Source: a virus
Virus record (IMG/VR): IMGVR_UViG_3300042934_000534
Span: 1-26,158 of that record
DNA: 26,158 nucleotides
Direction: 5' to 3' (one strand)
Below are positions 8,011 through 21,683 of the stretch, piece after piece (positions within the stretch are counted from its first letter, which is position 1; every line of letters starts with the position of its first letter). The notes beneath the pieces are model-generated. The model had not been told where the DNA came from and searched no databases. It saw nothing but the letters and a program-made list of their open reading frames with translations. Made by a program: the position numbers and the translations under genes.

Positions 8011-8034
8011 GAGAATTTGAGCTGTGAGGAAAGG

Positions 8035-8888: not shown

Positions 8889-9251
8889 TTATTCCGGCTT
8901 TTCGACCTCGTCGTCAGGTTCCGGCGGATCGTCGGCGAGCGACTTCAAGCCTGCGGCCTGAATAAGTCGCGACACCTTTTCGTTAACAACAAAAGGTGTC
9001 GTGACACAGCGGAGCATCTTGGCCTGGGTTTCGAAGTCGGCGGCGATCAGGTTCCGAATGAGGTTCTGATGGATTTCCTGCTGGTTGTTGAAGCCGTGAT
9101 CCTTCATCACCTTCTTCAGGTCTGGCTTGAACACCCCGGCGACTTCAACCGTAAACTTCTCGACGCCCAGTGCAGCGTCCTTTGCTGCTGCCTTCTCGCG
9201 CTTTTTCTTCTGCTTGATGGCTTCCTTCGTTGGCTCCTGTACTTCGGCCAT
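8889..9251 (-). CDS. Unknown phage protein
   Basis: A 120-residue protein with a Lys-rich N terminus (KQKKKREKAAAKDAA), a central segment VEKFTVEVAGVFKPDLKKVM followed by two helices, and an acidic proline-rich tail. The strand-helix-helix core faintly resembles ribbon-helix-helix proteins, but I would not assign it. Its 3' part contains a 14-bp inverted repeat (8967-9004) nearly identical to one inside the rha gene. GAGGT precedes the ATG. The 81 bases between it and the gene ending at 9333 contain no gene I can support. Confidence 0.65.
   Translation of the reverse strand: MAEVQEPTKEAIKQKKKREKAAAKDAALGVEKFTVEVAGVFKPDLKKVMKDHGFNNQQEIHQNLIRNLIAADFETQAKMLRCVTTPFVVNEKVSRLIQAAGLKSLADDPPEPDDEVEKPE
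8967..9004. repeat. Intragenic inverted repeat, 14-bp arms with 10-base loop (copy 1)
   Basis: TCGCGACACCTTTT (8967-8980), a 10-base centre, and AAAAGGTGTCGTGA (8991-9004), with one G-T pair. It shares arm length, loop length and 12 of 14 base pairs with 20893-20930; one shared position is flipped C-G to G-C and stays paired. Confidence 0.8.
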
Positions 9252-9332
9252 GGCCTACCTCTTCAATTCCGCTGGCCGGCAATTCCAGCCAGGTCTGTCG
9301 GCGGCGCGTGGCCGCCCGGTTGGTGGTTCGTT

Positions 9333-9797
9333 TCACGCTGCGACCTTCACCTGATTCCAGGCGCCCGCGGCGAGGAACAGCTTTGCGGCCTCGGCCTCTT
9401 CCAGCGACACCTCGGCCGGGATGGCGATCCACCCTGACGCGAGTATGTGGTTCGGGTTCGCGCTGTTGCGCAGCTCCAGGTAGTAATGCTCGATGGCATC
9501 GGTCAGGCGCTCGACCTTGTAGATGCCCTCGGGCGATATCTCCACTGACTTGATGTACTCAGCGCCGCGCTCGTCTCGACACATGGCGCCGATGTAGATC
9601 GTCCAGCGGTAGGAGAAGTCGAAGATCGCGTTGGCGATCGCCAGACTGCGGATCTGCTTACAGCTCTTCCAGCTCGCCATGATCTGGCTGCCGCTGGGGT
9701 CGATGTTCACGACCGCGACGTGGTTGGTGCGCAGCAGCGCCCGGCAGCTGCGTTCAGCCCGGGCGAAACCGTTGTTGGGTTTGCGTTTCGACTTCAT
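9333..9797 (-). CDS. Unknown phage protein of the recombination cassette
   Basis: A 154-residue protein with a basic N terminus (MKSKRKPNNGFARAERSCRA). Middle strands include WTIYIGAMCRDERG and YIKSVEISPEGIY, followed by an acidic helix ERLTDAIEHYYLEL. It starts at an ATGA overlap with the 9794-10036 gene, so it is translated in the exonuclease/RecT operon. No known domain was recognised. Confidence 0.65.
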   Translation of the reverse strand: MKSKRKPNNGFARAERSCRALLRTNHVAVVNIDPSGSQIMASWKSCKQIRSLAIANAIFDFSYRWTIYIGAMCRDERGAEYIKSVEISPEGIYKVERLTDAIEHYYLELRNSANPNHILASGWIAIPAEVSLEEAEAAKLFLAAGAWNQVKVAA

Positions 9798-10036
9798 AGC
9801 GAGTCCGCCATTTTGCGCAGCGCCTTGCGTTCGGCGGCCGATATTGGCTTCGGGCGCCGCTTGAGGACCGTTTCAGGGTCTATTGTCTTCGAGCGCTCGG
9901 CGGGATCGGGGTTTAGCGGCGGGCTTTTCAGTTGGTCGATCCGCCCGCCAGCGGCCAGGTACTGCGCGATTCGTTCAGCAATCGACTCGGCGTCCGGTCG
10001 GTGCTGCTCGACGAAGTTGAGGTGGTTGCTGATCAT
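9794..10036 (-). CDS. Small unknown phage protein
   Basis: An 80-residue protein. The N-terminal helix (DAESIAERIAQYLAAGGRIDQL) and basic C-terminal part (RRPKPISAAERKALRKMAD) suggest a compact helical nucleic-acid or protein adaptor, which is inference. It starts two bases after the exonuclease stop and overlaps the next gene by ATGA, so it belongs to a tightly coupled string. Confidence 0.65.
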   Translation of the reverse strand: MISNHLNFVEQHRPDAESIAERIAQYLAAGGRIDQLKSPPLNPDPAERSKTIDPETVLKRRPKPISAAERKALRKMADSL

Positions 10037-10038
10037 GC

Positions 10039-10707
10039 TCAGGCTCCTAATCGATGGGCTTGTGCCCGCGCTTTATCCGCTACTTCGTCAACCATCCGGC
10101 CAAGCTCCAGATTGAACTGGACCAGCTCTTGATGAAGCATCGCGATGTACTCGTCATCGCGTTTGATGGTCTCGATGTACAGCCGGCAGTCTTCATCTTG
10201 GCGCGGATCGAACGACAGGAAATCCCACCATTCCCGTCCCGTGACGAACATGCAGCCCTGAACCTGCGGCCTGTGTTCGTCGGGCATTCCTTCAAGCCAG
10301 GTACGGACGTGGACGGCTTCGTTGAATGGACACTTCGACTCGATGCCGCCGTCCTCGCCGATCAAGCCATCCGGCGAACAGCCCAGCCAGTCGTACTTCG
10401 GATGAACCACAAAGCCCGATTTGATGACGGTGTTGCCGGTCAGGATTTCGTAAAAGTCGTGACTCGACTGCTCAACCTCGGTCCCCCAAGCCATCGACTT
10501 GCTGCTGACCGAATGCTTCGACCGGTTAGCCAAGCGTTCAAAGGCCAGCTCGCGCATGTAGGTGGTTCGGGCGGCGAGTGGCTTACGCTTGCCATGTTTG
10601 TCACGATCCCCCCAAGCAATCACATCCTTGAAGCGGCTCGCTGTGAGGCGCCCGCTACGGTCCTGATGCCACTGCTCGGTGCGCTGAAGGTCTAATGGGG
10701 CGTTCAT
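10039..10707 (-). CDS. Lambda-Exo/YqaJ-type recombination exonuclease
   Basis: A 222-residue nuclease of the PD-(D/E)XK superfamily. LTASRFKDVIAWG (about 21-33) is the typical YqaJ N-terminal motif. Catalytic residues are visible in GCSPDGLIG (Asp113) and GIESKCPF (Glu123, Lys125). The protein would resect double-strand ends 5' to 3' and hand single strands to RecT. It overlaps the recT stop by ATGA, the same pairing as exo/bet in lambda. Length is close to lambda Exo (226). Confidence 0.9.
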   Translation of the reverse strand: MNAPLDLQRTEQWHQDRSGRLTASRFKDVIAWGDRDKHGKRKPLAARTTYMRELAFERLANRSKHSVSSKSMAWGTEVEQSSHDFYEILTGNTVIKSGFVVHPKYDWLGCSPDGLIGEDGGIESKCPFNEAVHVRTWLEGMPDEHRPQVQGCMFVTGREWWDFLSFDPRQDEDCRLYIETIKRDDEYIAMLHQELVQFNLELGRMVDEVADKARAQAHRLGA

Positions 10708-11684
10708 TGATCAGCGCCTTGCAGATCGTTGTCGGCATGGGCGTCTGCGCTATCGTTGAGGGTGGTGAACTCCGCCTCAATTGTCTGCGCAATCGACTTC
10801 AGCTCACCGTGACGCGTCACGCCAATAGCACCTCGCTGCTGCGGCTTGAGCGCTTTCCAAGCCTTCTCATAACCGTCGATTCCTTGCTCTTGAGCAACCT
10901 TTTTCAACTGCTCGAACAGGTCGGCAGTTGCGTCGGTTGTGTCGCCTTGGGGTACTGCAGCGGCTCCAACGTCTGCGGGCTTTTCGTTGGTAGATCGCGG
11001 GGTAACATCCGTTTCCGGAAGCGCGTAGCCGTCGTCCAGCTCGTCACGCGTGTACACGCCCAGAATCACGTCAGGGCAATACAGACGAGCCCATTTTTTG
11101 AGGGCCAGGTACGCGATCTGCTGCTTCGGATCGTCTGCCCATAACGTAGAGTTTCGGGTTCGTGCCTGAGTCATTAAGGTGGTCAGTTCGCGGGGAGCGT
11201 CTTCACCCTCGAAAGTAGCCCAGACGCGGACGCCGAGGCCTTTCTCGTCGTTTATGTTCCAGTTTGGGACGCGGTATTTCTTCGGCTGTCCGTGGTCATC
11301 CGTTTGTTTTTTGCTTTCGATTTCACGGAAGTTGCCAATGATCTTGCCCCAGTCGCCAAACCACTCGTAATGGATTCGATCAATGGTCGGAGCGCGAGTC
11401 GTGATGACCGCATTCACCAGCTGTGCTTCGTAGCTCAGCTGGCCACCGTTGACGATGAAAGTCTTCTGCGCCACCTGGAAGGGGTTCATGCCCCATTGCA
11501 TGGACTGCATGATCACCGCCATGCAGTCGGCAGTGTTTCCGTGGAAGTGTTTCGGCAGGGTGGTTTTGCCGCCTGCCATGATGCCTGCGAGTTCAGTCAT
11601 CGACTGCATGCTGTCGCGATTGAGGATCAAGCCCGTCGGGCTGGTGTCCATTGGTACGGTAGCAATCTGTGTTTTGGCGTTCAT
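10704..11684 (-). CDS. recT: RecT-family single-strand annealing protein
   Basis: A 326-residue annealing protein. The N-terminal half contains TLPKHFHGNTADCMAVIMQS and WGMNPFQVAQKTFIVNGGQL, the hallmark of RecT/Bet proteins, followed by LSYEAQLVNAVI. The middle has RNSTLWADDPKQQIAYLALK and WARLYCPDVILGVYTRDEL, again typical. The C-terminal 100 residues are a variable tail. The start at 11684 has GGAG six bases before it; a frame from 11696 would put the site inside the gene. With the exonuclease it forms a two-part homologous recombination system for replication and mosaic exchange. Confidence 0.93.
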   Translation of the reverse strand: MNAKTQIATVPMDTSPTGLILNRDSMQSMTELAGIMAGGKTTLPKHFHGNTADCMAVIMQSMQWGMNPFQVAQKTFIVNGGQLSYEAQLVNAVITTRAPTIDRIHYEWFGDWGKIIGNFREIESKKQTDDHGQPKKYRVPNWNINDEKGLGVRVWATFEGEDAPRELTTLMTQARTRNSTLWADDPKQQIAYLALKKWARLYCPDVILGVYTRDELDDGYALPETDVTPRSTNEKPADVGAAAVPQGDTTDATADLFEQLKKVAQEQGIDGYEKAWKALKPQQRGAIGVTRHGELKSIAQTIEAEFTTLNDSADAHADNDLQGADQ

Positions 11685-11739
11685 TCCTAACTCCATAGCC
11701 GACGACTTTGGCCGGCCTCCGGGGGGATTTCAGGTTTTT

Positions 11740-12849
11740 TTAGAACGACAGGGCGCGCAGCCAGGCCGATGCCTCGTCATTGGTGACGCAGAAGGCCATA
11801 GCCACGACCTCGACCACTTCGCTGGCGCTCGGCATGTTCGAGTCTGCGGGTTGATCTGTTGTCTGCGCAGGATCGGCATCCGCAACTGCCGTTTGCGCTA
11901 CGCCGGCAATTACCGGAGCCGAAGACAAGGTTGCTGCCGGAGCAGGTGCGGAAGCTTGGGCGCGGAGGCGAGCCAGTTCTTCTTGGTCGCGCTGATACTG
12001 AGCGTCGCGCTCGCGCTGTTGGCGCTGCTGCGCTTCCATATCGCGGCGCTGTTGGTCGAGCTCATCCTGCTGTTTTTTCAAGCGAAGGCGGTCTTCCTCG
12101 GCGCGTTGCTTGCGCAGCTCTTCGGCTTCAGCGTCAGCGATTCGCTGTTTCTCGCGCAGCTCTTCGAGTTCTTTCTGTTGAGCCGCCAACTTGGTGGCAG
12201 CCTCCTCGCGGTCAACAGCAGCCCTGTGCAGCGTTTCAAGCTGCTCAATAGCGTTATCGCGGGCGATGGTGCCTTCTGCTTCGAACTCGGCGTACTCCTC
12301 GGGCAGGATTGCCGAGTCCTTGACGTTTTGCAGGACGTTCGCAACGTCGGCAGCGCTGCGGCTTGCGTATGCGGCAGCGACAGAGCTGAACCGCGTGATT
12401 TTTGCCCGGATGCCTTCGACACGTTCGGCTTCGAGACGCTCACGTTCGGCCTTGGCATCAGCCGCGCGCTTTTCTTCGGCCTTGATGGCTTCGTCGACTG
12501 GCGCTTCGATTGCCAGCACGCGCTCCTTCAGCGCCTCACCGAACTCCTTCACTTGGTTGACGCGAGCCTGGGCGTCTTTAACCGCCTGCTGATAGGGTAC
12601 AAGTGCCGTTTTGGTGGTGTTGGCCAGGGCATAGCGGACATCGCGAATATCAACGCGAACTTCCTTCGCATTCGCCAAGCCTTCACTGGTCGAGCAGTCG
12701 ACAACCAGGTTCGCGTAGGTCGTTTCCAGGCGGACGATTTGTTCTTCATGCGGCCGATATTCGGCGATGTCGGTGACAGCCACTGTTGGCGCTATGGCGG
12801 TCATTTCGATGGATTCTTGCAACGGTGCTTGTTGGGCTTTTGCGGACAT
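11740..12849 (-). CDS. Coiled-coil phage protein upstream of recT
   Basis: A 369-residue protein. Residues about 25-145 are mixed helices, and residues about 215-300 form a long highly charged coiled coil (ELEELREKQRIADAEAEELR and more), followed by an Ala/Pro linker and a short conserved end (DEASAWLRALSF). Such proteins commonly sit beside RecT/exonuclease in phages of this type. The position recalls gam in lambda, but the sequence gives no evidence for nuclease inhibition. A 7-bp hairpin (12861-12877) and AAGGAACC precede the ATG. Confidence 0.7.
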   Translation of the reverse strand: MSAKAQQAPLQESIEMTAIAPTVAVTDIAEYRPHEEQIVRLETTYANLVVDCSTSEGLANAKEVRVDIRDVRYALANTTKTALVPYQQAVKDAQARVNQVKEFGEALKERVLAIEAPVDEAIKAEEKRAADAKAERERLEAERVEGIRAKITRFSSVAAAYASRSAADVANVLQNVKDSAILPEEYAEFEAEGTIARDNAIEQLETLHRAAVDREEAATKLAAQQKELEELREKQRIADAEAEELRKQRAEEDRLRLKKQQDELDQQRRDMEAQQRQQRERDAQYQRDQEELARLRAQASAPAPAATLSSAPVIAGVAQTAVADADPAQTTDQPADSNMPSASEVVEVVAMAFCVTNDEASAWLRALSF

Positions 12850-12892
12850 GACGGTTCCTTGCCGCGCTGAGCGCAGCTTGTGGTGGCTTTGT

Positions 12893-13009
12893 TTATTGAG
12901 TGATGCGATCGGCGAGGGCGCTGAGCAACATCAGGAAGGTGAACATGCCAATAGCGGAGAACGATCCGCGCCGAATGAGGATGCGGCGGGCCATCTGCCG
13001 GCTGGTCAT
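12893..13009 (-). CDS. 38-residue single-pass membrane peptide
   Basis: MTSRQMARRILIRRG forms a basic N terminus, followed by a hydrophobic helix (FSAIGMFTFLMLLSALA) and a short polar end. Its ATG overlaps the stop of the preceding small gene by ATGA, which supports real translation. By the positive-inside rule the N terminus would be cytoplasmic. Function unknown. Confidence 0.5.
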   Translation of the reverse strand: MTSRQMARRILIRRGSFSAIGMFTFLMLLSALADRITQ

Positions 13010-13131
13010 CGGAACACGTTGTAGGTGGTGGAGCGCGGCACCTGGCAAGTGCCCTGGCCGTCTTTAACGATGCCGTAGGCGCCTGCGCCGGCAATCAGAA
13101 TCACGACGAGAATCCAGTAGACGAGGTTCAT
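13006..13131 (-). CDS. 41-residue membrane peptide with one cysteine
   Basis: Starts MNLVYWILVVILIAGAGAYG, a strong membrane or signal-anchor helix, then a polar tail (DGQGTCQVPRSTTYNVF) likely outside the membrane. No lipobox. It overlaps both neighbours by ATGA, so it is part of a coupled chain of five small genes from 13779 to 12893. Confidence 0.55.
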   Translation of the reverse strand: MNLVYWILVVILIAGAGAYGIVKDGQGTCQVPRSTTYNVFR

Positions 13132-13316
13132 GGCCGAGCCCTCACCACGATTCGGCCATCCTGCAGGGACGACTCCAAGTGTTTTGGCAGCCTGGCCACA
13201 GGAAACTCCCGAGGAGCCAGCTCTTCCGGAACGGCGACGAATCCAAGCACCTGAAGCTTTCGGTCAATGTCCTCGACCAGTTCGTCGATCAAGCTTTTTA
13301 CCGGTGGCGTGGTCAT
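13128..13316 (-). CDS. Small unknown phage protein
   Basis: A 62-residue protein with a helical N-terminal half (IDELVEDIDRKLQVLGF) and a basic C-terminal half (ARLPKHLESSLQDGRIVVRARP). ATGA overlaps with both neighbours indicate coupled translation. Not recognised. Confidence 0.6.
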   Translation of the reverse strand: MTTPPVKSLIDELVEDIDRKLQVLGFVAVPEELAPREFPVARLPKHLESSLQDGRIVVRARP

Positions 13317-13546
13317 GCTGCAGCTCCTTGCGAGACGGAGGCGTTGTAGGTGGCGTAAATCTGGTCGATGCGAGCGCGGTAGTGGCGGTGCTCGTTGTCG
13401 TCAATGGCACGAAGCATGAAGGCCAGGGTGATGCAGGATGTCGCGGCGGCGCTGGCGTTGGGCTTGCCGAGGTCGCGGATCATGTTGCTGATCTCGCCTT
13501 CGATCCAGGTCACCGCCGTTTGATGGTCACGCTGATGGATGTTCAT
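13313..13546 (-). CDS. Small unknown phage protein
   Basis: A 77-residue, mostly helical protein (AVTWIEGEISNMIRDLG, then SCITLAFMLRAIDDNEHRHY). It starts at an ATGA overlap with the 13543 gene and ends in another with the 13316 gene. No motif recognised. Confidence 0.6.
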   Translation of the reverse strand: MNIHQRDHQTAVTWIEGEISNMIRDLGKPNASAAATSCITLAFMLRAIDDNEHRHYRARIDQIYATYNASVSQGAAA

Positions 13547-13779
13547 TTGAGCCCCCAGAATTCGCCGTAGGCGACCACCGCTGCCGCAACTCGCTTCGCC
13601 CGCGCCTTGCGGTCGACCAGCTCTTGAGCTGCCATCAAGGCCTGACGCTCTGTGCGTTCTTGCGCTGCGGCTTCGTAGTCGTGAAAGTCTTCAACCTTCG
13701 GCGCTTTGGGGCGCCCCCATTCATCAAATCGCCGATCCCACTCTCGGGCCTGCGCACTGTCTGCATAGCTGGTTGCCAT
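13543..13779 (-). CDS. Small unknown phage protein
   Basis: A 78-residue charged helical protein (EWDRRFDEWGRPKAPKVEDF, then AAQERTERQALMAAQELVDR). The start at 13779 is set by GGAGG upstream; the longer frame from 13827 lacks a site. First gene of the coupled small-gene chain. A two-part stem-loop (13823-13870) separates it from the HNH gene. Confidence 0.6.
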   Translation of the reverse strand: MATSYADSAQAREWDRRFDEWGRPKAPKVEDFHDYEAAAQERTERQALMAAQELVDRKARAKRVAAAVVAYGEFWGLK

Positions 13780-13822
13780 GGTCGCCTCCGTGGTGGCGGG
13801 TGTTGATCCAACAAAACTCGGA

Positions 13823-13870
13823 TGCACTCATCCGCTCCGCTGGTTGCCGTTGGGCGCGGAGGGGAGTGCA
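13823..13870 (-). repeat. Two-step stem-loop after the HNH gene
   Basis: Outer arms TGCACTC/GAGTGCA (13823-13829, 13864-13870) enclose inner arms CTCCGC/GCGGAG (13835-13840, 13856-13861). It sits between the HNH stop (13879) and the next start (13779). No T-run follows, so it is not a classic terminator; it may be a processing or stability element. Confidence 0.45.
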
Positions 13871-13878
13871 AACTTGGG

Positions 13879-14520
13879 TTATGCAGAGCGGCCGTGGTTT
13901 GGGTGGAACCCATACCGGAGCTCTGCAGATTTTCTCGCTGCCGCAGCATCAAGAAAGCATTTGAAGTGCCCGAGAGTCAGACACTTGCCGTCAACGCCGA
14001 TCGTCACTCGAAACGACGATGATTTTTTAAGGAAGTACACGCCGTGAATGCCGCTTCTGTTGAGGTGCTGAAGCTTGGCGTTACGGTTGTTGTCCGTGAT
14101 TGAGACGGTGCGTAAATTCTCTATCCGGTTGTCCGTTCGATTGCCGTTGATGTGGTCAATCCGAAGTCCTGGCGGGATCTCGCCGTGATGAATTTGCCAG
14201 ATTACCCTGTGCACGTACAGCGCTTTCCTGCCTGCTCGGGTAGTGAGATATCCGTCATATCGCAGAGAGCCAACGCGGGTACCAACAGCGGCACCTGATG
14301 CCCGGACAAGGCCTCCATCTTCAGCGCAATACTCGTAAATCTGTCGCAACTCGGTCGCGCTGAGATCCATTGGAGGAAGGTCTCTTTTTCTCCTATTGCG
14401 TGTCTTATCACATGATTTGCAATACGAGCCGTAGCCGCTTTTTCGGGACCGGTCTTTGTAAAAATGCTCAGTTGGTAGGTCTCGAAGACATTTGCCGCAG
14501 GGTTTTGTTTGCGCAAGCAT
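13879..14520 (-). CDS. HNH endonuclease with N-terminal zinc finger and AP2-like end (homing type)
   Basis: A 213-residue protein; the start at 14520 has GGAGG six bases upstream. Residues 8-38 hold Cys pairs (CGKC and YCKSC), a zinc finger. The HNH core is LYVHRVIWQIHHGEIPPGLR, then IDHINGNRTDNRIENLRTV (metal and catalytic His). The C-terminal part (SGIHGVYFLKKSSSFRVTI) resembles AP2-type DNA-binding domains of phage homing endonucleases. It is probably a free-standing selfish endonuclease inserted in the left operon; both neighbouring genes look complete, so it is not shown to sit in an intron. Strong structured DNA flanks it on both sides. Confidence 0.88.
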   Translation of the reverse strand: MLAQTKPCGKCLRDLPTEHFYKDRSRKSGYGSYCKSCDKTRNRRKRDLPPMDLSATELRQIYEYCAEDGGLVRASGAAVGTRVGSLRYDGYLTTRAGRKALYVHRVIWQIHHGEIPPGLRIDHINGNRTDNRIENLRTVSITDNNRNAKLQHLNRSGIHGVYFLKKSSSFRVTIGVDGKCLTLGHFKCFLDAAAARKSAELRYGFHPNHGRSA

Positions 14521-14578
14521 CGCCACCTCCCGGAAAAGGCGTCTTGTGTTGGAAGGGGTTGCCGGTCTTTCCCGGCTG

Positions 14579-14704
14579 TCACGGCGCTTGTGCCAGATCA
14601 AGGTAGCTCGCCAATACCAGGTTGGCGCTGACCCTGCGCAATGCGGGTTGAGCTATTCGCCGGTGATGCAGGTGGGCGGTTATAGGCCGCAGTTTCGTCC
14701 GCAT
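14579..14704 (-). CDS. Possible 41-residue ORF between methyltransferase and HNH genes
   Basis: A basic peptide starting MRTKLRPITAHLHHRR. No convincing ribosome binding site, and its first codons lie in one arm of the 18-bp inverted repeat, so coding status is doubtful. The gene-poor stretch 14521-14837 otherwise holds only that repeat. Confidence 0.22.
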   Translation of the reverse strand: MRTKLRPITAHLHHRRIAQPALRRVSANLVLASYLDLAQAP

Positions 14705-14784
14705 CGGTCTGCACTCAACTCAAGCTACTTATGGGCGGCCTGCCAGCCACGTTATGGCAGTAACGCTGAGTGCAGACCGATGCG
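14700..14784. repeat. Perfect 18-bp inverted repeat with nested hairpin
   Basis: CGCATCGGTCTGCACTCA (14700-14717) is repeated exactly in inverted orientation at 14767-14784, 49 bases apart. Inside lies a second stem, CTGCCA/TGGCAG (14740-14745, 14755-14760). In the minus-strand transcript it would fold into a long stem upstream of the HNH gene. Confidence 0.85.
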
Positions 14785-14837
14785 CTCTCATAGAGAGGAT
14801 CGGGCAGTTAACGACAGGCTGTCGTGGCGCTGGTTGT

Positions 14838-15599: not shown

Positions 15600-15620
15600 T
15601 TGTGACTCCCGGTTGTTTTC

Positions 15621-15649
15621 CCAATGCACCCGTCACCAGGTGCATCAGT
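15621..15649 (-). promoter_or_regulatory. Hairpin leader of the methyltransferase gene (twin 1)
   Basis: On the minus strand it reads ACTG-ATGCACC-8 bases-GGTGCAT-TGG and ends 22 bases before the ATG at 15599. The flanks are the same as in 15872-15901 while the stem bases differ but still pair. Confidence 0.55.
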
Positions 15650-15661
15650 GAAAAGGCCCGG

Positions 15662-15850
15662 TCAGCCCTCGCAGCCCATTTGATAGTTGCTTGCATGCTC
15701 TGCGCTGCAAAACGGCAACTCTCGAGTGCGAAGCACCTGACGGTTGGTGTATGGGTCGCGAGTTCGGTCGTGGATGTTGCGGCGCACCACCTGTTCGGCT
15801 GGCTTACCGCAGTACGTGCACTTCGTTTGCGTTGCTGCTGCATCGGTCAT
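15662..15850 (-). CDS. Small zinc-ribbon phage protein
   Basis: A 62-residue protein; the start MTDAAATQ has GGAGGG upstream. Ligands are C-T-Y-C near residue 11 and F-C-S-A-E-H near residue 48, a treble-clef-like or zinc-ribbon arrangement with a basic middle (VVRRNIHDRTRDPYTNRQV). It is the first well supported gene of the pL operon. It may be a regulator or an adaptor; nothing more specific can be said. Confidence 0.65.
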   Translation of the reverse strand: MTDAAATQTKCTYCGKPAEQVVRRNIHDRTRDPYTNRQVLRTRELPFCSAEHASNYQMGCEG

Positions 15851-15871
15851 CGTGTTGCCCTCCGTTGATTT

Positions 15872-15901
15872 CCAATGCCGCCTCATCGAAGCGGCATCAG
15901 T
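15872..15901 (-). promoter_or_regulatory. Hairpin leader of the zinc-ribbon gene (twin 2)
   Basis: Minus strand: ACTG-ATGCCGC-9 bases-GCGGCAT-TGG, ending 22 bases before the ATG at 15850, the same distance as its twin. Paired changes in the stem between the two copies support an RNA structure. Confidence 0.55.
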
Positions 15902-15936
15902 AAATCTTTGGTCTTTCTCCGCACCCGCTTACCAGG

Positions 15937-16052
15937 TCATTCACTCAGTTCGGTCACCACCTCGTCCGCCGTCGCAGTGGGCTGCGCGTGGGCAGGCTTT
16001 CGGGCCTGTCGGATCGCCGGTCGCCGGTAGAGGCAAGTGCGGTTTTGTTCAT
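15937..16052 (-). pseudogene. Possible small pL leader gene, frame-broken
   Basis: GGAGG eleven bases upstream and ATG at 16052 open a 32-residue Arg-rich frame (MNKTALASTGDRRSDRP...) that stops at 15954. An overlapping frame without a start reads AIRQARKPAHAQPTATADEV and on to VVTELSE at 15937, and looks more protein-like. One shift near 16015 would join them. It may be a broken small gene or an Arg-rich peptide in its own right. The remainder of the interval 15851-16182 is the pL leader, with a further 20-residue frame (16057-16119) that I do not consider supported. Confidence 0.25.
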
Positions 16053-16128
16053 CGGTTTACTGACCTCCCACCGATGGAGCCGGGAGTGACCTAACCGGAC
16101 TGGCCGGGTAGTCGTTCATGGCGCTGGT

Positions 16129-16140
16129 TGTTAAAGAGCG
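16129..16140 (-). promoter_or_regulatory. nutL: boxA antitermination element in the pL leader
   Basis: The minus strand reads CGCTCTTTAACA, matching the ribosomal boxA consensus, about 45 bases after the predicted pL start. This is where lambdoid phages keep nutL. The following CAACCAGCGCCA shows no clear boxB hairpin. AACAACCAGCGCCA recurs on the minus strand at about 14836-14823, at the end of the methyltransferase gene. Confidence 0.55.
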
Positions 16141-16189
16141 GCGCGGCTTTCGCTACTGGCCGGCGGTGTTCGGTGCTGGCTTGAGACGA

Positions 16190-16218
16190 ATTTAAGCAAG
16201 CTGAAATAACCGTGTCAA
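16190..16218 (-). promoter_or_regulatory. pL: pL promoter
   Basis: On the minus strand, TTGACA (16218-16213) and TTAAAT (16195-16190) are separated by exactly 17 bases. It is the strongest promoter of the phage region and drives the left operon. Two repressor operators overlap its -10 and -35 boxes. Confidence 0.8.
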
Positions 16219-16250
16219 GCATGCTGAATAAATTAATTCAGATTGCTGAA
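16192..16250. promoter_or_regulatory. oL: Left operator cluster (three sites)
   Basis: Three 14-bp sites related to TTAAGCATGCTGAA: 16192-16205 TTAAGCAAGCTGAA, 16215-16228 TCAAGCATGCTGAA, 16237-16250 TTCAGATTGCTGAA. Centres are 23 and 22 bp apart, about two helical turns, as expected for cooperative repressor binding. Confidence 0.8.
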
Positions 16251-16263
16251 ATTTAGAGGCGAT

Positions 16264-16288
16264 AAAAAGCCCGCTCAATGGCGGGCTC
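16264..16288 (-). terminator. Intrinsic terminator of the DUF1654 gene
   Basis: On the minus strand, AGCCCGC / GCGGGCT with a six-base loop, then five T. It insulates the prophage-state genes from pL. Confidence 0.8.
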
Positions 16289-16290
16289 AT

Positions 16291-16542
16291 TTATGCGTCG
16301 CAGTATTCTCGCCAGCCGATTCTGACGGTGCCGCCCTCCAGGGTCTCGACCCGGACGCCAGAGGTCTCGCCGATCTCATCCAGTAGGCGCTGCCAGTCCT
16401 CTGGTGATTCGTGATCCAGCCTCGCCACTGTGACCGCCTGTACCTTTTGAACGCTTGGAGCAGCGATCAGGGCTTGCAGGCGGCGGCCTGCCGACTCATA
16501 CGACGAGGACAGTTTCGATGTGGTGAAAGCTGGACTGGGCAT
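16291..16542 (-). CDS. DUF1654 family protein, probably SOS controlled
   Basis: An 83-residue protein. The start MPSPAFTTSK was chosen because AAGGAG lies six bases upstream. The segment VQKVQAVTVARLDHESPEDW followed by QRLLDEIGE is the DUF1654 signature as I know it from pseudomonads and their phages. The role is not established; location and regulation suggest DNA damage or induction. It has its own promoter overlapping a LexA-like box and its own terminator, so it is a one-gene unit lying between the CI-side genes and pL. Confidence 0.8.
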   Translation of the reverse strand: MPSPAFTTSKLSSSYESAGRRLQALIAAPSVQKVQAVTVARLDHESPEDWQRLLDEIGETSGVRVETLEGGTVRIGWREYCDA

Positions 16543-16559
16543 GTGGCGCTCCTTATCTA

Positions 16560-16601
16560 TACTGGTTCTATATACAGTATTTACGTTCCTTGGCATTGGC
16601 A
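16560..16601 (-). promoter_or_regulatory. Promoter with LexA-like SOS box
   Basis: Minus strand: TTGCCA (16601-16596), 17 bases, TACTGT (16579-16574). The -10 box is part of TACTGTATATAGAACCAGTA (16579-16560), which fits the CTGT-N8-ACAG LexA box with one mismatch in the second half-site (CCAG). Confidence 0.65.
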
Positions 16602-16655
16602 AGCGTAGTTATGCATTACTGCATATATTTTGCGAGCCGCTTTCTCGTGGGCATG

Positions 16656-16678
16656 AAAAAGCCCGCGCATAGCGGGCT
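16656..16678 (-). terminator. Intrinsic terminator of the membrane zinc-ribbon gene
   Basis: On the minus strand, AGCCCGC / GCGGGCT around a five-base loop, then TTTTT. It lies 18 bases after the stop at 16696. Confidence 0.8.
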
Positions 16679-16695
16679 CTGTTTAGCTTGATGGA

Positions 16696-17271
16696 TCAGT
16701 CCGCAATCGGCGGGTACTTGCCGCTCACCGAGTCTCTATAGACGATCTCGCAGAATAGCCGCGGGCCCTCACGCATAGTGACCAGTGCCCGCTTTGCCTC
16801 TTCCTTCGTTTCAAATGGGCCAGCACCCACAGCCAGGCCGATCATAGGAACAACCGGGAGTCCGGTGCTGGTAATTGCCTCAATGGTTCGCTGCCGCTCC
16901 TCTTCGTCACGGCAGGCAGTTGATGCAACCCATCCATTTTTCAGCTTTGTGGCGGCTACTGGTTCAACGTCTGCACCGCAGTGTTTGCACTTAACGGCCG
17001 CTGTCTTGATGCTCTCGGCACACATAGGGCAGGGGCGCGTGTCTTTCTCTGCCTGGGCAGCAGCAGGGGAGCTTTTGCCGCCAAGCAGAACCATGAGCAG
17101 GCCGGCGAGCGCGATCATCCCGCCAACAATGGTGTGTATCTGTCGGTCAGCCATCAAGCCCATGTTGTTGACTCGCCCGCCAGCGCCGGTCGGCACTGAC
17201 ACGTCCATGCTCAGTGCGAAAATCAGCCAGCACAGGCCTACGATCAGCGCGAACGTTCCAAATCCTTTCAT
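16696..17271 (-). CDS. Two-pass membrane protein with zinc ribbon
   Basis: A 191-residue protein; the start at 17271 has GGAGGG upstream. Membrane helices lie at about 4-22 (FGTFALIVGLCWLIFALS) and 47-64 (IVGGMIALAGLLMVLLGG). A zinc ribbon follows at about 79-99 (CPMC ... KCKHCGADV). The C-terminal part has a GPFETKEEAKRALVTM segment reminiscent of SPOR-type repeats. Located among genes expected to be expressed in the lysogen, it could be a superinfection-exclusion factor, which is inference from place and topology only. Confidence 0.65.
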   Translation of the reverse strand: MKGFGTFALIVGLCWLIFALSMDVSVPTGAGGRVNNMGLMADRQIHTIVGGMIALAGLLMVLLGGKSSPAAAQAEKDTRPCPMCAESIKTAAVKCKHCGADVEPVAATKLKNGWVASTACRDEEERQRTIEAITSTGLPVVPMIGLAVGAGPFETKEEAKRALVTMREGPRLFCEIVYRDSVSGKYPPIAD

Positions 17272-17390
17272 TGGATCCCTCCCGTAATTGAGCCAGCACT
17301 TTACCATCCATGGCTTGTCGCCACCATGGTCGAGCCGAAAGGGGAGGAGGCCCATTTAGTGGCGGTTACAGCTCTGATCAGGGGAGGGCA

Positions 17391-17420
17391 GAAAGAAGAA
17401 GCCCGGCGCTGGGCCGGGCT
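17391..17420 (-). terminator. Terminator after the DUF3037 gene
   Basis: On the minus strand, AGCCCGGC / GCCGGGCT with a five-base loop, then a pyrimidine tail TTCTTCTTTCT. The T-run is interrupted, so efficiency is uncertain. Confidence 0.55.
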
Positions 17421-17424
17421 CAAC

Positions 17425-18267
17425 CTAAGCTATTTCAGCCGATGCTGGAATACCTTCCTTAATTAGACTCACCATGCTTGCTCGATCTTCTTCTGAGCTG
17501 ATCACGCGAACCTCTGGAAACGCGCTCAATTCTGTCGAAACCTCTTTATAAGCCTTAAAAAGCTTCGGCTTTCCAGCGATAGGAGGGCCTGCGACAAACA
17601 AGGTATCTGGTGGTAGCTGGCCCTTAGCGCTTAGGCGTCGCACTCTTGATATCCACGCATCCCCGTGTTCATAGATTTTTCCGGATTCTTCGTGACCAAG
17701 GTGCAATGGTTTGATTGCCTGCACAGGCTTGCCACCCTGAATCAGTACGAATGGAAATTTCACTGGGTAGTCCGATGAGCCCAGCTTTCGATCCACGTAA
17801 TGTTGCTTCAAATTGACGTCAGCCAACAGCCTGCCTAGCTGTTTCTCTAGCGCTGCTTCCTGATATTCCTTTGTCGCAAAGCTGTGCTTCACATAGTGGT
17901 CAAATAGAGCTTTTAGTGCCTGGTCTGAATTTGCCGCAACTATTGAGCCTGGCTCACTGAAGCGCATCATCGTTTCCCGCGGATGCACCAAGTGACTGAA
18001 TGTCGCAGAGAGCGCCTGGCGATCAGATCTATGGCTCGTGAAAAAGCCGCTGAGTCTAGCAAGCTCAGCATTTACTTCTTTTCGTGCCCTGATAAAAATC
18101 TTGGCATCAAGACTTGGGAAAAATGTTGTTACGCGCTGGCGCTTGGTCTCTACGACGAAACGAAAATCACCATTATTGGCAAGCAGCACTATCCCGATGT
18201 TTACAAACTCACCCGTCTCTGGGTAAGGGAGAAACCTCAAAATTGAGTAATTACATATGATTCTCAT
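17425..18267 (-). CDS. DUF3037 family protein, partner of the HipA-like kinase
   Basis: A 280-residue protein. The N-terminal part (YSILRFLPYPETGEFVNIGI and VLLANNGDFRFVV) is the DUF3037 hallmark. The middle is helical, and the C-terminal third has alternating strands (LPPDTLFVAGPPIAGKPKL). No catalytic motif is evident. Its ATG overlaps the kinase stop (ATGA, 18267-18264), so the two proteins are made together and probably act together. Lower GC than the phage core suggests transfer as a cassette. The biochemical role of DUF3037 is, to my knowledge, undefined. Confidence 0.8.
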   Translation of the reverse strand: MRIICNYSILRFLPYPETGEFVNIGIVLLANNGDFRFVVETKRQRVTTFFPSLDAKIFIRARKEVNAELARLSGFFTSHRSDRQALSATFSHLVHPRETMMRFSEPGSIVAANSDQALKALFDHYVKHSFATKEYQEAALEKQLGRLLADVNLKQHYVDRKLGSSDYPVKFPFVLIQGGKPVQAIKPLHLGHEESGKIYEHGDAWISRVRRLSAKGQLPPDTLFVAGPPIAGKPKLFKAYKEVSTELSAFPEVRVISSEEDRASMVSLIKEGIPASAEIA

Positions 18268-19007
18268 AGGGCCCCCCAGAATCGCTCTTCCTTGAACATC
18301 TGCAGAATTTCTAGCCGGCTTGCTAGCGTTGGCTCGGTCAGGTCGATGAGGTCTGCATCCCTATATAGCCAGTCTTCGGTCAAAAAGGTGATGATCGTAT
18401 CCCAGTTCGACAACGCCTTGCTCAGGATATCAGTGTATTCCTGACGAACGAGGTAATCCCTGAAATCTTTGCGGCACTCGCAGAACACGTGCTCTTCAAG
18501 AAATTCTTCGGGATTGAAGGACTTATGAAATGCCAGGTTGTGATCGATGACGGCTAGCTCGCCACGGCTGTCCAATATTAGGTTCACGTTCCCACCCATT
18601 GGGCCGAGAATCCTGTCTCCATTTTGCACCCACCAATCAAATAGTAGAACCTTTCTCATCAGGTCCCGAGGGGTGGATTTCAAATGGGCAATGTTGAAAT
18701 CTACAGCGCTTTCGACCGCTTGCGATGCGAAGGCTAATCCTCCCTCCAGATCGGAGACGTTGGGAACCACGCTGAAGTCGATCAGGTCTTGAGGTACGAC
18801 CATTTTTTTCCACGGAGGAATAGGCAAGCCGAGGGTTTTGCCCAGTTCTGCGCAGAGCAACTCCGATATCAGCGCCGGGCCGCCAGATTTGGAAAGCCCT
18901 TTTACAAAGTAGGTTTCACCATCGTCAGCACGAATAATGAATGGCTTTATGGATATTCCCTGATGGCTTTGTCGAACAATTTCGACAGCTGTTACTAGGT
19001 CCGACAT
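18264..19007 (-). CDS. HipA-like kinase family protein
   Basis: A 247-residue protein, shorter than HipA (about 440). KPFIIRADDGETYFVKGL (about 21-38) includes the ATP-binding Lys; NGDRILGPMGGNVNLIL (about 133-149) matches the catalytic loop with Asp and Asn; LAVIDHNLAF (about 154-163) supplies the metal-binding Asp. This suits the compact HipA-like group often found next to DUF3037. Its substrate is unknown; HipA itself phosphorylates glutamyl-tRNA synthetase. No HipB-type antitoxin is adjacent, so DUF3037 may be the control partner. Its start region carries repeats of AGCCGTAC. The ribosome site is weak (AGGGA). Confidence 0.8.
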   Translation of the reverse strand: MSDLVTAVEIVRQSHQGISIKPFIIRADDGETYFVKGLSKSGGPALISELLCAELGKTLGLPIPPWKKMVVPQDLIDFSVVPNVSDLEGGLAFASQAVESAVDFNIAHLKSTPRDLMRKVLLFDWWVQNGDRILGPMGGNVNLILDSRGELAVIDHNLAFHKSFNPEEFLEEHVFCECRKDFRDYLVRQEYTDILSKALSNWDTIITFLTEDWLYRDADLIDLTEPTLASRLEILQMFKEERFWGAL

Positions 19008-19038
19008 AGCCGTACTATCCCTGAGCTAAATTTGAATG

Positions 19039-19071
19039 CGTAACTTTATTAGCCGTACGGCTCAGGTTACG
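19039..19071. promoter_or_regulatory. Nested inverted repeats before the HipA-like/DUF3037 pair
   Basis: CGTAAC (19039-19044) and GTTACG (19066-19071) enclose the perfect 12-bp palindrome AGCCGTACGGCT (19051-19062). A direct copy of AGCCGTAC lies at 19008-19015, beside the kinase start. This resembles an autoregulatory operator. Confidence 0.5.
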
Positions 19072-19297
19072 TTCTGCTTATGCTTCCCGCCTTCACCTGT
19101 TCTGCGTACCGCTCCAGCCGATCCTCACCAGCCTGCATCACAACGCATATCCGGATCACTGCCTGAGCGTCCGCCTCATTGCCCGCTAGGCTTAGTCGCT
19201 CAGCGATACGCATCAGCTCAACCGCCGACCACTTGAGGTCTGAGGCTGTACCCTGGAGGTCGCGGCGTAATTCTTGGTCGGGTTTGGTGAGGGGCAT
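19067..19297 (-). CDS. Small unknown protein downstream of cI
   Basis: A 76-residue, mostly helical protein (DLKWSAVELMRIAERLSLAG, then EADAQAVIRICVVMQAGEDR). GGAGGTCGCC before the ATG is an excellent ribosome binding site. It starts 13 bases after the cI stop and is probably expressed with the repressor. Its end overlaps the inverted repeat ahead of the kinase pair. Function unknown. Confidence 0.65.
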   Translation of the reverse strand: MPLTKPDQELRRDLQGTASDLKWSAVELMRIAERLSLAGNEADAQAVIRICVVMQAGEDRLERYAEQVKAGSISRT

Positions 19298-19310
19298 GGC
19301 GACCTCCAGC

Positions 19311-19970
19311 TCAGTAGTGAAACTTCTGTGTTGCTTGCACTACGACGCCAACTATTCGGCAGTTTTCATCAAAGACTTCGGTCGGGTATCCGGGGTTGAG
19401 CGGCTTTAGGTAGAGCTTTCCGCCGTCGCTGACCAGTTTCTTAAAGGTCGCCTCGTTGCTGTCTGGAAGTTTGGCCACAACAAGCTTGCCTGGCGCCGCC
19501 TCTACTTCGGTATCCACCAAGATTAGTGAGCCCTGGGCGATGCTCGTACCTACTGGCGATGTCATCGAGTCGCCTTTGACTTCAAGCCAGAACGCTGGGC
19601 CTTTCGAGTTGTATTCGGAAAACTCGTAGCGATCCGATATGCCTGCAGGGTAGGGCTCTACAGCCTCGGCCCAGGAGCCAGCCGATACCCAACTGATCAC
19701 TGGGTAGCGGAAGCTCTGAGAAGGCTGCTCAGGCATGGAGACATTGGGCTCTGATGCCTCCTGCTCAGCACCCTCACCAATAGCAAGCCACTCTGCTCTG
19801 AAGCCAGTTGCTTTTGCCAATGCGTAGAGATTCTCTGGCCGGAGGCTTTTGCTCTCGCCAGTAATCCATTGAGTGACAGCAGAGTTCGCGACGCCGCACA
19901 GCGCCGCAATTTCGCCCTTCTTTTTCCCGCTGAGCTGTATAGCTCGGGCAATACGTTCATGTCTTTCCAT
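19311..19970 (-). CDS. cI: CI-type prophage repressor (HTH plus S24 self-cleavage domain)
   Basis: A 219-residue repressor. Residues about 17-41 (KKKGEIAALCGVANSAVTQW) form the helix-turn-helix. The cleavage site is Ala97-Gly98 (WVSAGSW), the catalytic Ser135 is in GDSMTSP, and Lys177 is in ATFKKLV; the spacing Ser to Lys (42 residues) is close to lambda CI. It should keep the prophage silent by binding the 14-bp operators and be destroyed after RecA activation. There is almost no ribosome binding site before the ATG, so a leaderless transcript is possible, as for lambda cI. Confidence 0.93.
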   Translation of the reverse strand: MERHERIARAIQLSGKKKGEIAALCGVANSAVTQWITGESKSLRPENLYALAKATGFRAEWLAIGEGAEQEASEPNVSMPEQPSQSFRYPVISWVSAGSWAEAVEPYPAGISDRYEFSEYNSKGPAFWLEVKGDSMTSPVGTSIAQGSLILVDTEVEAAPGKLVVAKLPDSNEATFKKLVSDGGKLYLKPLNPGYPTEVFDENCRIVGVVVQATQKFHY

Positions 19971-19980
19971 GGACTCAATA

Positions 19981-20050
19981 TTAAGTTAACTGAATTTAAG
20001 CATGCAGTAGGCGGAAAACTCCGTTGACGCAATCACTTAAGCATGCTGAA
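19981..20050. promoter_or_regulatory. oR: Right operator cluster (three sites)
   Basis: Sites 19981-19994 TTAAGTTAACTGAA, 19996-20009 TTAAGCATGCAGTA and 20037-20050 TTAAGCATGCTGAA share the pL operator consensus. The first two are adjacent near the cI start; the third lies inside the pR promoter. Spacing (15 and 41 bp between centres) differs from the even pL array. Confidence 0.75.
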
Positions 20051-20052
20051 AT
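20024..20052 (+). promoter_or_regulatory. pR: pR promoter
   Basis: TTGACG (20024-20029) and TGAAAT (20047-20052) are 17 bases apart. The strongest operator (20037-20050) overlaps the spacer and -10 box, so a bound repressor would block RNA polymerase. Confidence 0.65.
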
Positions 20053-20079
20053 TGCGTCAGAGTCGAACGAGGATGCGAA

Positions 20080-20259
20080 ATGAATACGCATGAAGTCGCC
20101 GAATTCTTCGGCAGCAAGACAAAGCTGGCACTAGCTCTGGGCATCCGCCCGAGCGCTGTGACCATGTGGGGGGAAACCATCCCCGAATCCCGGCAGTACC
20201 AGATTCAGGTTCTTTCCAAAGGAAAGTTCAAGGCAGCAAAGAAGGCACAAGCCGCCTGA
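20080..20259 (+). CDS. cro: Cro-like repressor
   Basis: A 59-residue protein whose sequence (EVAEFFGSKTKLALALGIRP then SAVTMWGETIPESRQYQIQV) is that of a Cro-family helix-turn-helix protein: KTKLALALGI is helix 2 and PSAVTMWG helix 3. The basic tail KGKFKAAKKAQAA fits non-specific DNA contact. It is the first gene of pR, divergent from cI, and would shut off cI and lower early transcription during lytic growth. GAGGA lies seven bases before the ATG. Confidence 0.85.
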   Translation: MNTHEVAEFFGSKTKLALALGIRPSAVTMWGETIPESRQYQIQVLSKGKFKAAKKAQAA

Positions 20260-20323
20260 CATCCCAGTCCGCCGTTTCATTGAAGCCATCTTGACCGCAA
20301 CCTCCCCAAGGAAAAACTAGGAC

Positions 20324-20791
20324 ATGAAAACGCCCGTACTAGAGACCCGCCGCCAAGTTATGGCAGCCGTGTCCAACGCTTTCCCTGGCGGGATGGATTG
20401 CGCAGCGGCTCGCCTTGGCATCAAGAACAAGCGTCTGGAAAACCAGATCTACGAGACAGCAGGCTGCAAGCCGTTGAGCGATGCCGAGATATTCGTGCTG
20501 GAAAGCGAAACGAAGACCGAGCATCTGCCGGACTACATCTGCGCCATGTACGGCGGTGTGTTCGTGAGGATCCCGGAGGCGGGGGAGTTGGACAACGTCG
20601 ACCTGTACCAGCGCTCGCTGGCTGCATCTGCACAACGCGGCGCCCTTGATCAGATGGTTGCGTCAGCTTTGGAAGATGGCGAGATCGATGCGAATGAAGC
20701 AAAGAAGATCCGCGCCCTGCACGCCAAGTACATGTCGGCGAGCCTTGAGGCTATCGGGGCGGTGATTGAGTTGCACAAAGCCCGCGCATAA
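20324..20791 (+). CDS. CII-like phage regulatory protein (YmfL family)
   Basis: A 155-residue protein. The N-terminal half carries a helix-turn-helix (GGMDCAAARLGIKNKRLENQ) and the middle the motif LPDYICAMYGGVFVRIPE, typical of the CII/YmfL-type regulators. The C-terminal 60 residues are helical (DGEIDANEAKKIRALHAKYM). As second gene of pR, the place of cII in lambdoid phages, it probably controls the lysis-lysogeny decision. AGGAAAAACTAGGAC precedes the ATG. Confidence 0.78.
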   Translation: MKTPVLETRRQVMAAVSNAFPGGMDCAAARLGIKNKRLENQIYETAGCKPLSDAEIFVLESETKTEHLPDYICAMYGGVFVRIPEAGELDNVDLYQRSLAASAQRGALDQMVASALEDGEIDANEAKKIRALHAKYMSASLEAIGAVIELHKARA

Positions 20792-20802
20792 ATCGCAGGC
20801 AC

Positions 20803-20828
20803 AAAAAAGCCAGGTTCGTGGCCTGGCT
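20803..20828 (-). terminator. Terminator-like hairpin facing the minus strand
   Basis: Read on the minus strand, AGCCAGG / CCTGGCT with a seven-base loop is followed by TTTTTT. On the plus strand, the direction of the surrounding genes, there is no T-run. No minus-strand gene precedes it, so it may stop antisense transcripts or act only as an mRNA hairpin. Confidence 0.6.
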
Positions 20829-20852
20829 CATTGCTACTTCAGCGAGGCAATA

Positions 20853-21683
20853 ATGAATACACAGAATGCTTACGTCAATACCCCCAACAATGTCGCGACA
20901 CGTTTTTCCAATTCTGAAAACGTGTCGCGAACAGTTTCTATGTCCAGCTTGGAGCTGGTTCAGTTCATCAATTCAAATCGCGAACAGGGCGATCCCGTAC
21001 TCACCCATAAAAACCTGATGGCCAAAGTGCCTCGAGTTTTGGGTGCAGATCAATCGGCTAAATTTTCAGCCGATTACATGGACAGTCGAAGCCGCTCCCA
21101 AAAATGCTTCGTCTTCCCAAAGCGGGAAGCATGCCTCATCGCGATGTCCTACAGCTATGAGCTCCAAGCGCTCGTTTTCGACCGGATGACGGCACTTGAG
21201 GATCGCGAACGAGCTCGCTCCAGTCCATCCAATCCAAAGATCGTCGGCGAGCTGGCAATTCTCGAATGCTTCGATCGCCTGCTCAAGCCAGCGGCGTCGA
21301 GCAAGATGATGATGCTTGCCCAAATCGCCGCCAACAACGGACTTGATGCCAAGTTTCTGCCCGGGTATGCCGTCGATGCTGCGCCTGATGCAGCTGGCGG
21401 ATCTTCGATGCCGACGAAGTCAGCCACAGCGCTACTGAAGGACAGCGGCATCCGCTGCGCGCCGGCGGCTTTCAATCGTGCGCTGGCCGACCATGGCTTC
21501 CTCAAGCAGCTCCAGCGCAAGAACTCCAAACACGAGATGGTCGACTTCTGGTCCGTGACTGAAAAGGGCCTCAAGTACGGCAAGAACCTCACCAGCCCTC
21601 AATGCCCGCGCGAGACGCAACCTCACTGGTACGTCGACCGCTTCCTTGAGCTTGCCGTGCTTATCGGCAAAGGACGCCCATGA
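20853..21683 (+). CDS. rha: Rha-family phage regulatory protein
   Basis: A 276-residue protein; the start at 20853 was chosen for GAGG upstream; a frame from 20766 would run through the previous gene. Residues about 25-95 contain the Rha domain: SSLELVQFINSNREQ, then LTHKNLMAK and YSYELQALVFDRMTALED. The C-terminal half has a KilA-C-like or antirepressor-type segment (SATALLKDSGIRCAPAAFNR). Rha proteins are linked to phage growth and host-dependent interference. Codons 14-26 form a perfect 14-bp hairpin (20893-20930) shared with another gene of the phage. Confidence 0.8.
   Translation: MNTQNAYVNTPNNVATRFSNSENVSRTVSMSSLELVQFINSNREQGDPVLTHKNLMAKVPRVLGADQSAKFSADYMDSRSRSQKCFVFPKREACLIAMSYSYELQALVFDRMTALEDRERARSSPSNPKIVGELAILECFDRLLKPAASSKMMMLAQIAANNGLDAKFLPGYAVDAAPDAAGGSSMPTKSATALLKDSGIRCAPAAFNRALADHGFLKQLQRKNSKHEMVDFWSVTEKGLKYGKNLTSPQCPRETQPHWYVDRFLELAVLIGKGRP
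20893..20930. repeat. Intragenic inverted repeat, 14-bp arms with 10-base loop (copy 2)
   Basis: TCGCGACACGTTTT (20893-20906) and AAAACGTGTCGCGA (20917-20930) are perfect complements. The left arm also holds TCGCGA and lies in the 10-bp palindrome TGTCGCGACA. Same architecture as 8967-9004. Confidence 0.85.

Follow-up and report, generated by a model that had tools for sequence, protein, structure and literature searches.

In phage lambda, the CII protein acts at a few dispersed sites (pRE, pI and paQ), some of which lie in genes, and one of these drives antisense transcription through cII and cro into cI; CII reads direct repeats that flank the -35 box. Mycobacteriophage L5 carries another set of dispersed protein sites of a temperate phage, the stoperators, which are short, asymmetric and numerous, belong to one repressor type and have been proposed to stop transcription. 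In the modular theory of lambdoid phages, boundary or linker sequences are short conserved sequences at the junctions of exchangeable modules. For coliphage 186, CII is described (PMC6593788) as binding an inverted repeat whose half-sites, two turns apart, are at -38 and -58 of pE, a leftward, lysogeny-establishing promoter convergent with pR. In this study, two inverted repeats in the virus record IMGVR_UViG_3300042934_000534 of IMG/VR (26,158 bases, referred to as the window in its whole length) were followed up as members of a family of dyads. We propose that these dyads are candidate operator-like protein-binding sites of Pseudomonas temperate phages that function as double-stranded DNA, a reading to which a probability of roughly 0.5 is given from the sequences analysed. 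When the open-access literature was searched by arm letters and by topic, none of the titles listed was recognised as treating such an element.

Nucleotide-level conservation of the dyad

Both repeats of the window are copies of one dyad family of 36-37 base pairs (bp). One is in an rha-like antirepressor gene and the other in a phrog_5439 gene (Table 1); these positions are called slot A and slot B, respectively. As an earlier note on this DNA had described, the two are inverted repeats with 14-nucleotide arms and 10-nucleotide centres, and both genes read V-x-T-x-F...E-x-V-S-R across them. The arms of the slot-A copy pair by Watson-Crick rules at 14 of 14 positions, and those of the slot-B copy at 13 of 14, with one G.T on the plus strand (A.C on the coding strand of its gene). 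With up to 3 mismatches allowed, the arm pattern matched the window at only these two places, each on both strands, and matched none of 100 dinucleotide shuffles. The earlier count of two copies holds within the window at this tolerance and not for its relatives, as 50 related phage records, which were selected for having the element, contain 1 to 4 places each.

A total of 464 distinct copies was collected from 513 loci, up to 2 mismatches being allowed among the 16 arm letters and A/T-rich inner blocks being required; A/T-poor or more mismatched copies were left out. The family has the form CGCG[A/C]CAC-N20/21-GTG[T/G]CGCG with A/T-rich inner blocks, each half-site being CGCG[A/C]CAC followed mostly by a purine (C in slot B) and then by WWW. 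The spacer is 20 bp long in 357 copies and 21 bp in 107, and has a weak asymmetric consensus, TTTTC-N8-CAAAA. Class labels were taken from peptide patterns, which placed 132 copies in A, 73 in B and 31 in D and left 228 of the 464 unassigned.

Among the arm letters, strong covariation was seen at position 6 only, where both arms change together from A-T to C-G. The pair is A-T in 282 copies, C-G in 159, mixed in 21 and other in 2, and is thus coherent in 441 of the 464. Mixed arms are over-represented in this set, because the loci were collected largely by element pattern and the scan for mixed arms was complete, while the IMG/VR scan for the exact pattern and the scan for C-G arms gave lower bounds; the mixed-arm scan gave 22 mixed-arm stretches, compared with at least 120 C-G stretches. 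In a sample gathered by Rha bodies only (see below), 45 A-T and 34 C-G pairs and no mixed pair were found (79 of 79 coherent). The exchange of C-G for G-C at arm position 10, to which the earlier note had drawn attention, is real between the two window copies, but this pair is not well conserved across the family (G-C 203, C-G 81, G/T 75, A/C 49, and smaller classes for the rest). Inner position 2 is unpaired (T.T or A.A) in 110 of the 464 copies.

Conservation was assessed in homologues gathered through their proteins. Slot-B genes were found with six peptide patterns, one of which touches the element, and among the best 80 of 127 relatives the arms were kept in all 80. Of the 26 arm letters, none had changed in 34 genes, one in another 34, two in 9 and four in 3. 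Over 78 unique sequences, the same-codon excess was highest in the arms (0.477) and lower in the loop (0.205) and in the remainder of the gene (0.184, standard deviation 0.189). In the window, codons 26-42 of this gene (9251-8889) form a second stretch of unusually constant codons, which might be another hidden signal or reflect recent common descent. For slot A, the best 80 of 133 relatives found by the body of a single locus (L008) were used, and the element was present in 79 of them, 1 or 4 nucleotides before the Rha body. The outcomes that the earlier note had named as refuting its reading, namely homologues without the repeat or arms that drift, were seen in the one exception (L629) and in all three Rha relatives examined from Proteus, E. 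coli and Salmonella phages. No element was found in these three relatives, their best scores with a position weight matrix (PWM; cut-offs of 15-20 were used for the dyad) being -13.4, -11.8 and 1.6, compared with 33-36 in three regions of Pseudomonas phages, two with slot B and one with slot A. The element is therefore tied to Pseudomonas phages and not to the protein family.

The peptide shared by the two genes looks like a by-product of the DNA, since a 21-bp spacer moves the frame of the left arm, which then reads PRHE.. instead of VATRF.., with the DNA unchanged. A function of the peptide was ruled out by this spacer-dependent frame and by the intergenic copies of slot C (described below). 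As judged from these comparisons of sequence, the dyad is conserved at the nucleotide level, both in genes and between genes.

Recurrent slots, distribution and a predicted promoter

Copies of the dyad recur at four kinds of position. Slot A is at the start of genes of antirepressor type, which stand between cII and the replication genes; 5 of 6 bodies tested behind it match Phage_pRha, Bro-N, KilA-N or ANT, and one has no match. Slot B is within phrog_5439 genes of the left operon. Slot C is intergenic, between lysis-region genes and terminase genes; in one phage it directly follows a holin gene (PF05106), and in phiPSA1 and Medea1 it is in the lysis-side region, 1.6 and 2.6 kilobases (kb), respectively, before the annotated terminase gene. 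Slot D is of left-operon type with a 21-bp spacer, and the peptide that follows the element there is, by our own reading, similar to the one in some B genes. In Medea1 one further copy is located 8 bp upstream of TTGACA-N16-CATAAT; this phage has four clear sites and a doubtful fifth PWM match (score 15.5, spacer 22).

The exact pattern was found in at least 119 IMG/VR stretches. A collection of 84,980 species genomes gave 83 stretches, of which 75 come from records titled Pseudomonas. A contig of Streptomyces sp. IBSBF 2953 (L147) carries a typical Pseudomonas slot-B gene, and its assembly is possibly contaminated. A relaxed exact pattern matched 92 of 199 Pseudomonas genomes (reversed control 2 of 199), and across the class it matched 1 of 369 genomes, which was the Pseudomonas centre genome (reversed control 1 of 369). 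By PWM scan, sites were present in 6 of 6 annotated Pseudomonas phages, all chosen through earlier matches to them, and no reversed sequence scored above 15.

Fifteen whole genomes picked for carrying the element were searched at a tolerance of 2 mismatches. There were 38 matches with 0-1 mismatch, 30 of them within 20 kb of another match; we take these clusters to be prophages. In 5 of the 15 genomes a B-A-C triple was recognised by our own reading of positions, with 9.8-13.1 kb from B to A and 5.7-8.2 kb from A to C; 3 of the 15 members of these triples have 2 mismatches. Given this spacing and the 11.9 kb between the A and B copies of the window, a slot-C copy in the phage of the window would fall just past the right end. 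No convincing chromosomal dyad was found outside the clusters in the 15 genomes, where a few weak host sites could remain. The operator of a host regulon was considered as an identity for the dyad and rejected, since most of the matches with 0-1 mismatch are clustered and those with 2 mismatches number 13, versus a total of 20 for the reversed pattern.

At slot A the dyad is immediately upstream of a predicted sigma70-like promoter, antisense to the gene and directed towards cI. In the family it mostly consists of TTG... at 15 or 12 bp from the element, a 17-bp spacer and CATAAT over the start codon. A score of at least 8 of 12 was reached by 94% of 125 unique slot-A flanks, 16% of shuffles and 2% of sequences on the other side. 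When one scoring rule was applied over start codons, 103 of the 115 scorable leaders passed (the other 10 of the 125 lack a scorable ATG), compared with 14 of 577 other phage gene starts. A first baseline had given 88.7% of 106 versus 2.1% of 439, with the controls under a stricter ribosome-site rule than slot A. In the Rha-body-only sample 74 of 79 passed at fixed offsets, 69 of them at +15, and 76 of 79 passed with a free offset, the best promoter then being at +29 in 14 cases. The four annotated phages examined (PseuP_222, Medea1, phiPSA1 and VW-6S) all have a promoter match and the same gene order from cII to the replication genes as the window. A transcript from the predicted promoter would cross cII in antisense and enter cI in sense.

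A candidate operator and its alternatives

Among the readings offered earlier, an operator, or dyad symmetry kept for a protein, fits these data best. The dyad is probably a site at which a protein acts on DNA, and we would give about even odds to a link between the slot-A copy and the cI-ward promoter. Two inverted half-sites (CGCG[A/C]CAC R WWW), held 20 or 21 bp apart on double-stranded DNA, would be bound by a sequence-specific protein. The bound protein might set the activity of the pRE-like promoter, block polymerases coming from pR, or do both, and the choice between lysis and lysogeny could be tuned in this way. The role of the copies at slots B and C is a guess: they may be additional sites for the protein, in the early and the late operon, serving as transcription boundaries or as looping partners.

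A hairpin in the early mRNAs, which would control translation, processing or antitermination in a nut- or put-like manner, seems quite unlikely, even though most copies are able to form a G+C-rich stem of at least 8 bp, copies are present in the transcripts of both the left and the right operon, and the change at position 6 preserves pairing. An RNA stem should favour G.U over A.C mismatches in the sense strand. This is what is seen at the two outermost pairs of slot A (12 G.U versus 6 A.C), but over all pairs the numbers of G.U and A.C were 21 and 22 in slot A (102 unique copies), 8 and 77 in slot B (55) and 8 and 9 in slot D (25), so that an RNA stem is disfavoured. Pair 2 of slot B is A.C in 51 of 55 unique copies, and the inner pairs of slot D are broken, with A.A in 15 of 25 copies. 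Cis-acting RNA hairpins are marked by wobble preference and by compensatory pairs along the stem; over all pairs the family shows no such preference, and strong covariation is limited to position 6 of the arms. No G-C or T-A pair occurred at position 6 in the 464 copies, which were collected with A/C patterns at up to 2 mismatches, and Rfam gave no family at the two window sites. Where the earlier note had left the choice between pairing and dyad symmetry, the latter is the better description; pairing is clearly kept at position 6 only, and not at the position 10 cited there. The coherent A-T/C-G change nevertheless is the best argument for pairing or for strict symmetry of a dimer, and is not fully explained.

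The element also marks borders of gene exchange, including borders within genes, and may be a cause or a consequence of that exchange. Among 449 elements with 150-bp flanks there were 397 pairs, non-independent as many share members, in which one flank was shared (identity of 90% or more over 60 bp) while the opposite flank was not (45% or less), the break falling at the element or inside it. In these pairs, identity per 10 bp was 0.88-0.96 in the near flank; it was near 1 for the arms, 0.46-0.87 in mid-spacer, and only 0.40 for the 10 bp that come first after the element. Such breaks would be expected if the dyad were itself a module-exchange site, a recombination target for swapping antirepressor bodies, left-operon tails and neighbouring modules, whether site-specific or a short homology for phage annealing proteins such as the RecT type of the window. 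The different Pfam families behind slot A point the same way, and an arm-spacer-arm structure with an asymmetric spacer resembles lox-like sites. We consider such a target unlikely. Lox-like sites of tyrosine recombinases have a common recombinase, and identical spacers in the sites that exchange; the spacers of the dyad differ freely, even in pairs that share a flank, which speaks against lox-like strand exchange. Relatives of the lambda-type integrase of the window (PF00589) were found in 12 of 16 phages compared, several of them partial, and no credible gene family was common to all 16 at the BLAST level, the window, G002, G011, G032 and others being partial or partly fetched. Moreover, synonymous codons stay conserved only where the site itself is selected, and any conserved island will in any case look like a junction. 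The presence of one sequence in unrelated genes, both coding and intergenic, could be explained by a mobile miniature palindrome of the REP/REPIN or Rickettsia-palindrome kind inserted in frame in phage genes, which we regard as very improbable. REP/REPIN-type repeats have many scattered copies in one host genome, whereas the 199 Pseudomonas genomes have 0-8 exact copies each, and these stand at recurrent slots. The recently mobile element suggested by the earlier note is not supported, as 80 of 80 slot-B and 79 of 80 Rha-body homologues carry the dyad at the same place. No empty site was seen among the collected loci, where the flank spacing is 36 in 963 of 1011, a weak point because they were mostly chosen for the element.

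Several observations weigh against an operator, among them the outermost pairs of slot A and the lack of a common gene family noted above. Coherence at position 6 is unexpected of one protein that tolerates A or C. Beside slots B and D promoter scores were near those of shuffles (3%, 3%, 7% and 13% versus 8%, 6%, 7% and 10%). The distance from the element to the -35 box shifts by codon steps (mostly 15 or 12 bp, in a few cases 9 or 18, and 11 in phiPSA1), and is therefore poor for a helically phased activator. The -10 box of the predicted promoter comes partly free with the ATG start codon, for which the baseline allows. The 13 two-mismatch matches in the 15 genomes do not exceed the total of the reversed pattern, and weak chromosomal sites could not be judged. 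PF06892, the family of the CII-like CP76 protein, was detected (E <= 0.001) in 25 of the 50 element-bearing records, 24 being over the cut-off and some records being fragments. Only half of the records show this family, and the gene that precedes slot A varies as well (cluster families by our own reading); CII of the CP76 type was therefore rejected as a general binder, being unlikely in that role. The top gene cluster, present in 15 of the 16 phages, was likewise set aside, as it is a GTG-started frame opposite other genes and was taken for a shadow frame.

One control site at synonymous positions in antirepressor genes and in genes of the recombination operon would point to a shared lysogeny regulator, and this regulator would span many phages of one host genus that have different neighbouring regulators. 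In a broader form, which we hold to be rather improbable, a single factor of host or phage origin would read the dyad throughout the genus; the dyad would mark where exchangeable modules of otherwise different Pseudomonas phages meet, and would also control the cI-ward promoter. If true, this would make it a shared point of control and exchange, at which phages trade early modules and antirepressors but retain the same lysogeny switch. The dyad also offers a precise marker by which module junctions and the early region can be searched for.

The window and its comparison with described systems

The map of the window is lambda-like, with the lambda-type integrase, YqaJ and RecT genes in the left operon, a CI-type repressor and the CP76 gene, after which follow the rha-like gene, a replication initiator, a DnaC-like loader and NinG. 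The features are listed in Table 1. The putative abortive-infection gene right beside the slot-B gene runs opposite to the left operon, and the adjacent DUF3037 and HipA_2 kinase genes may be a two-gene system beside the repressor. An 18-nucleotide inverted repeat is unrelated to the dyad. Motifs similar to the further dyad after the Proteo-phage-1 RNA occur in several related phages.

Table 1. Positions of the dyads, the predicted promoter, genes and other features in the window
Feature	Position	Strand	Remarks
Dyad, slot A	20893-20930	none	Codons ~14-26 of rha-like gene; 36-bp core 20894-20929; PWM score 45.2
Dyad, slot B	8967-9004	none	Codons 83-95 of the 120-codon gene; 36-bp core 8968-9003; PWM score 39.3
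Predicted -35 box, TTGACG	20873-20878	-	Antisense cI-ward promoter; 15 bp from element core
Predicted -10 box, CATTAT	20850-20855	-	Same promoter; 17-bp spacer; overlaps rha start codon
rha-like antirepressor gene	20853-21683	+	Carries slot A; PHROG anti-repressor/transcription-regulation matches; no Pfam match at 0.1
phrog_5439 gene	8889-9251	-	Carries slot B; function unknown; 120 codons; left operon, adjoins YqaJ/RecT genes
CII-like CP76 gene	20324-20791	+	PF06892, E 2.3e-9; phrog_101
CI-type repressor gene	19311-19970	-	phrog_4 transcriptional repressor
Putative abortive-infection gene	8017-8871	+	PF16872, E 3.5e-10
DUF3037 and HipA_2 kinase genes	17425-19007	-	PF11236, E 4e-22; PF20613, E 4e-65
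Perfect inverted repeat	14700-14784		18-nucleotide arms, 49 nucleotides between them
Proteo-phage-1 RNA	25730-25807	+	Rfam RF03044, 72.4 bits; immediately follows two tRNA genes, for Thr (25569) and Asn (25648)
Further dyad	25809-25846		GCGCACCTTGACC...CAGGGTGGCGCGA

Of the described systems, CII and pE of coliphage 186 share with slot A of the window a cI-ward promoter, here predicted, with inverted half-sites upstream and a PF06892 gene next door. The half-sites of the dyad differ from those of 186 in being near -55 and -83, 28-29 bp apart, rather than at about -38 and -58, and further copies are far from the promoter. Because of these distances, and because half of the records are without a match to the CP76 family, slot A may work like a pRE or pE site but was not classed in the 186-type family.

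Like the CII sites of lambda, the dyads are few, dispersed and in some cases within genes, and one kind is near a predicted antisense cI-ward promoter, which, as in the case of pRE, is found between cII and the replication genes (by sequence only). They differ in that a long dyad lies upstream of the -35 box and in that slots B and D show no promoter. With the stoperators of L5 they share the dispersal of sites across a temperate phage genome, but they are 36-37 bp dyads, fewer in number and common to phages with different neighbouring regulators. The lambdoid linkers are similar in being short conserved sequences at module junctions; unlike these, the element described here is a defined dyad that recurs at several slots and, within genes, is preserved at synonymous positions.

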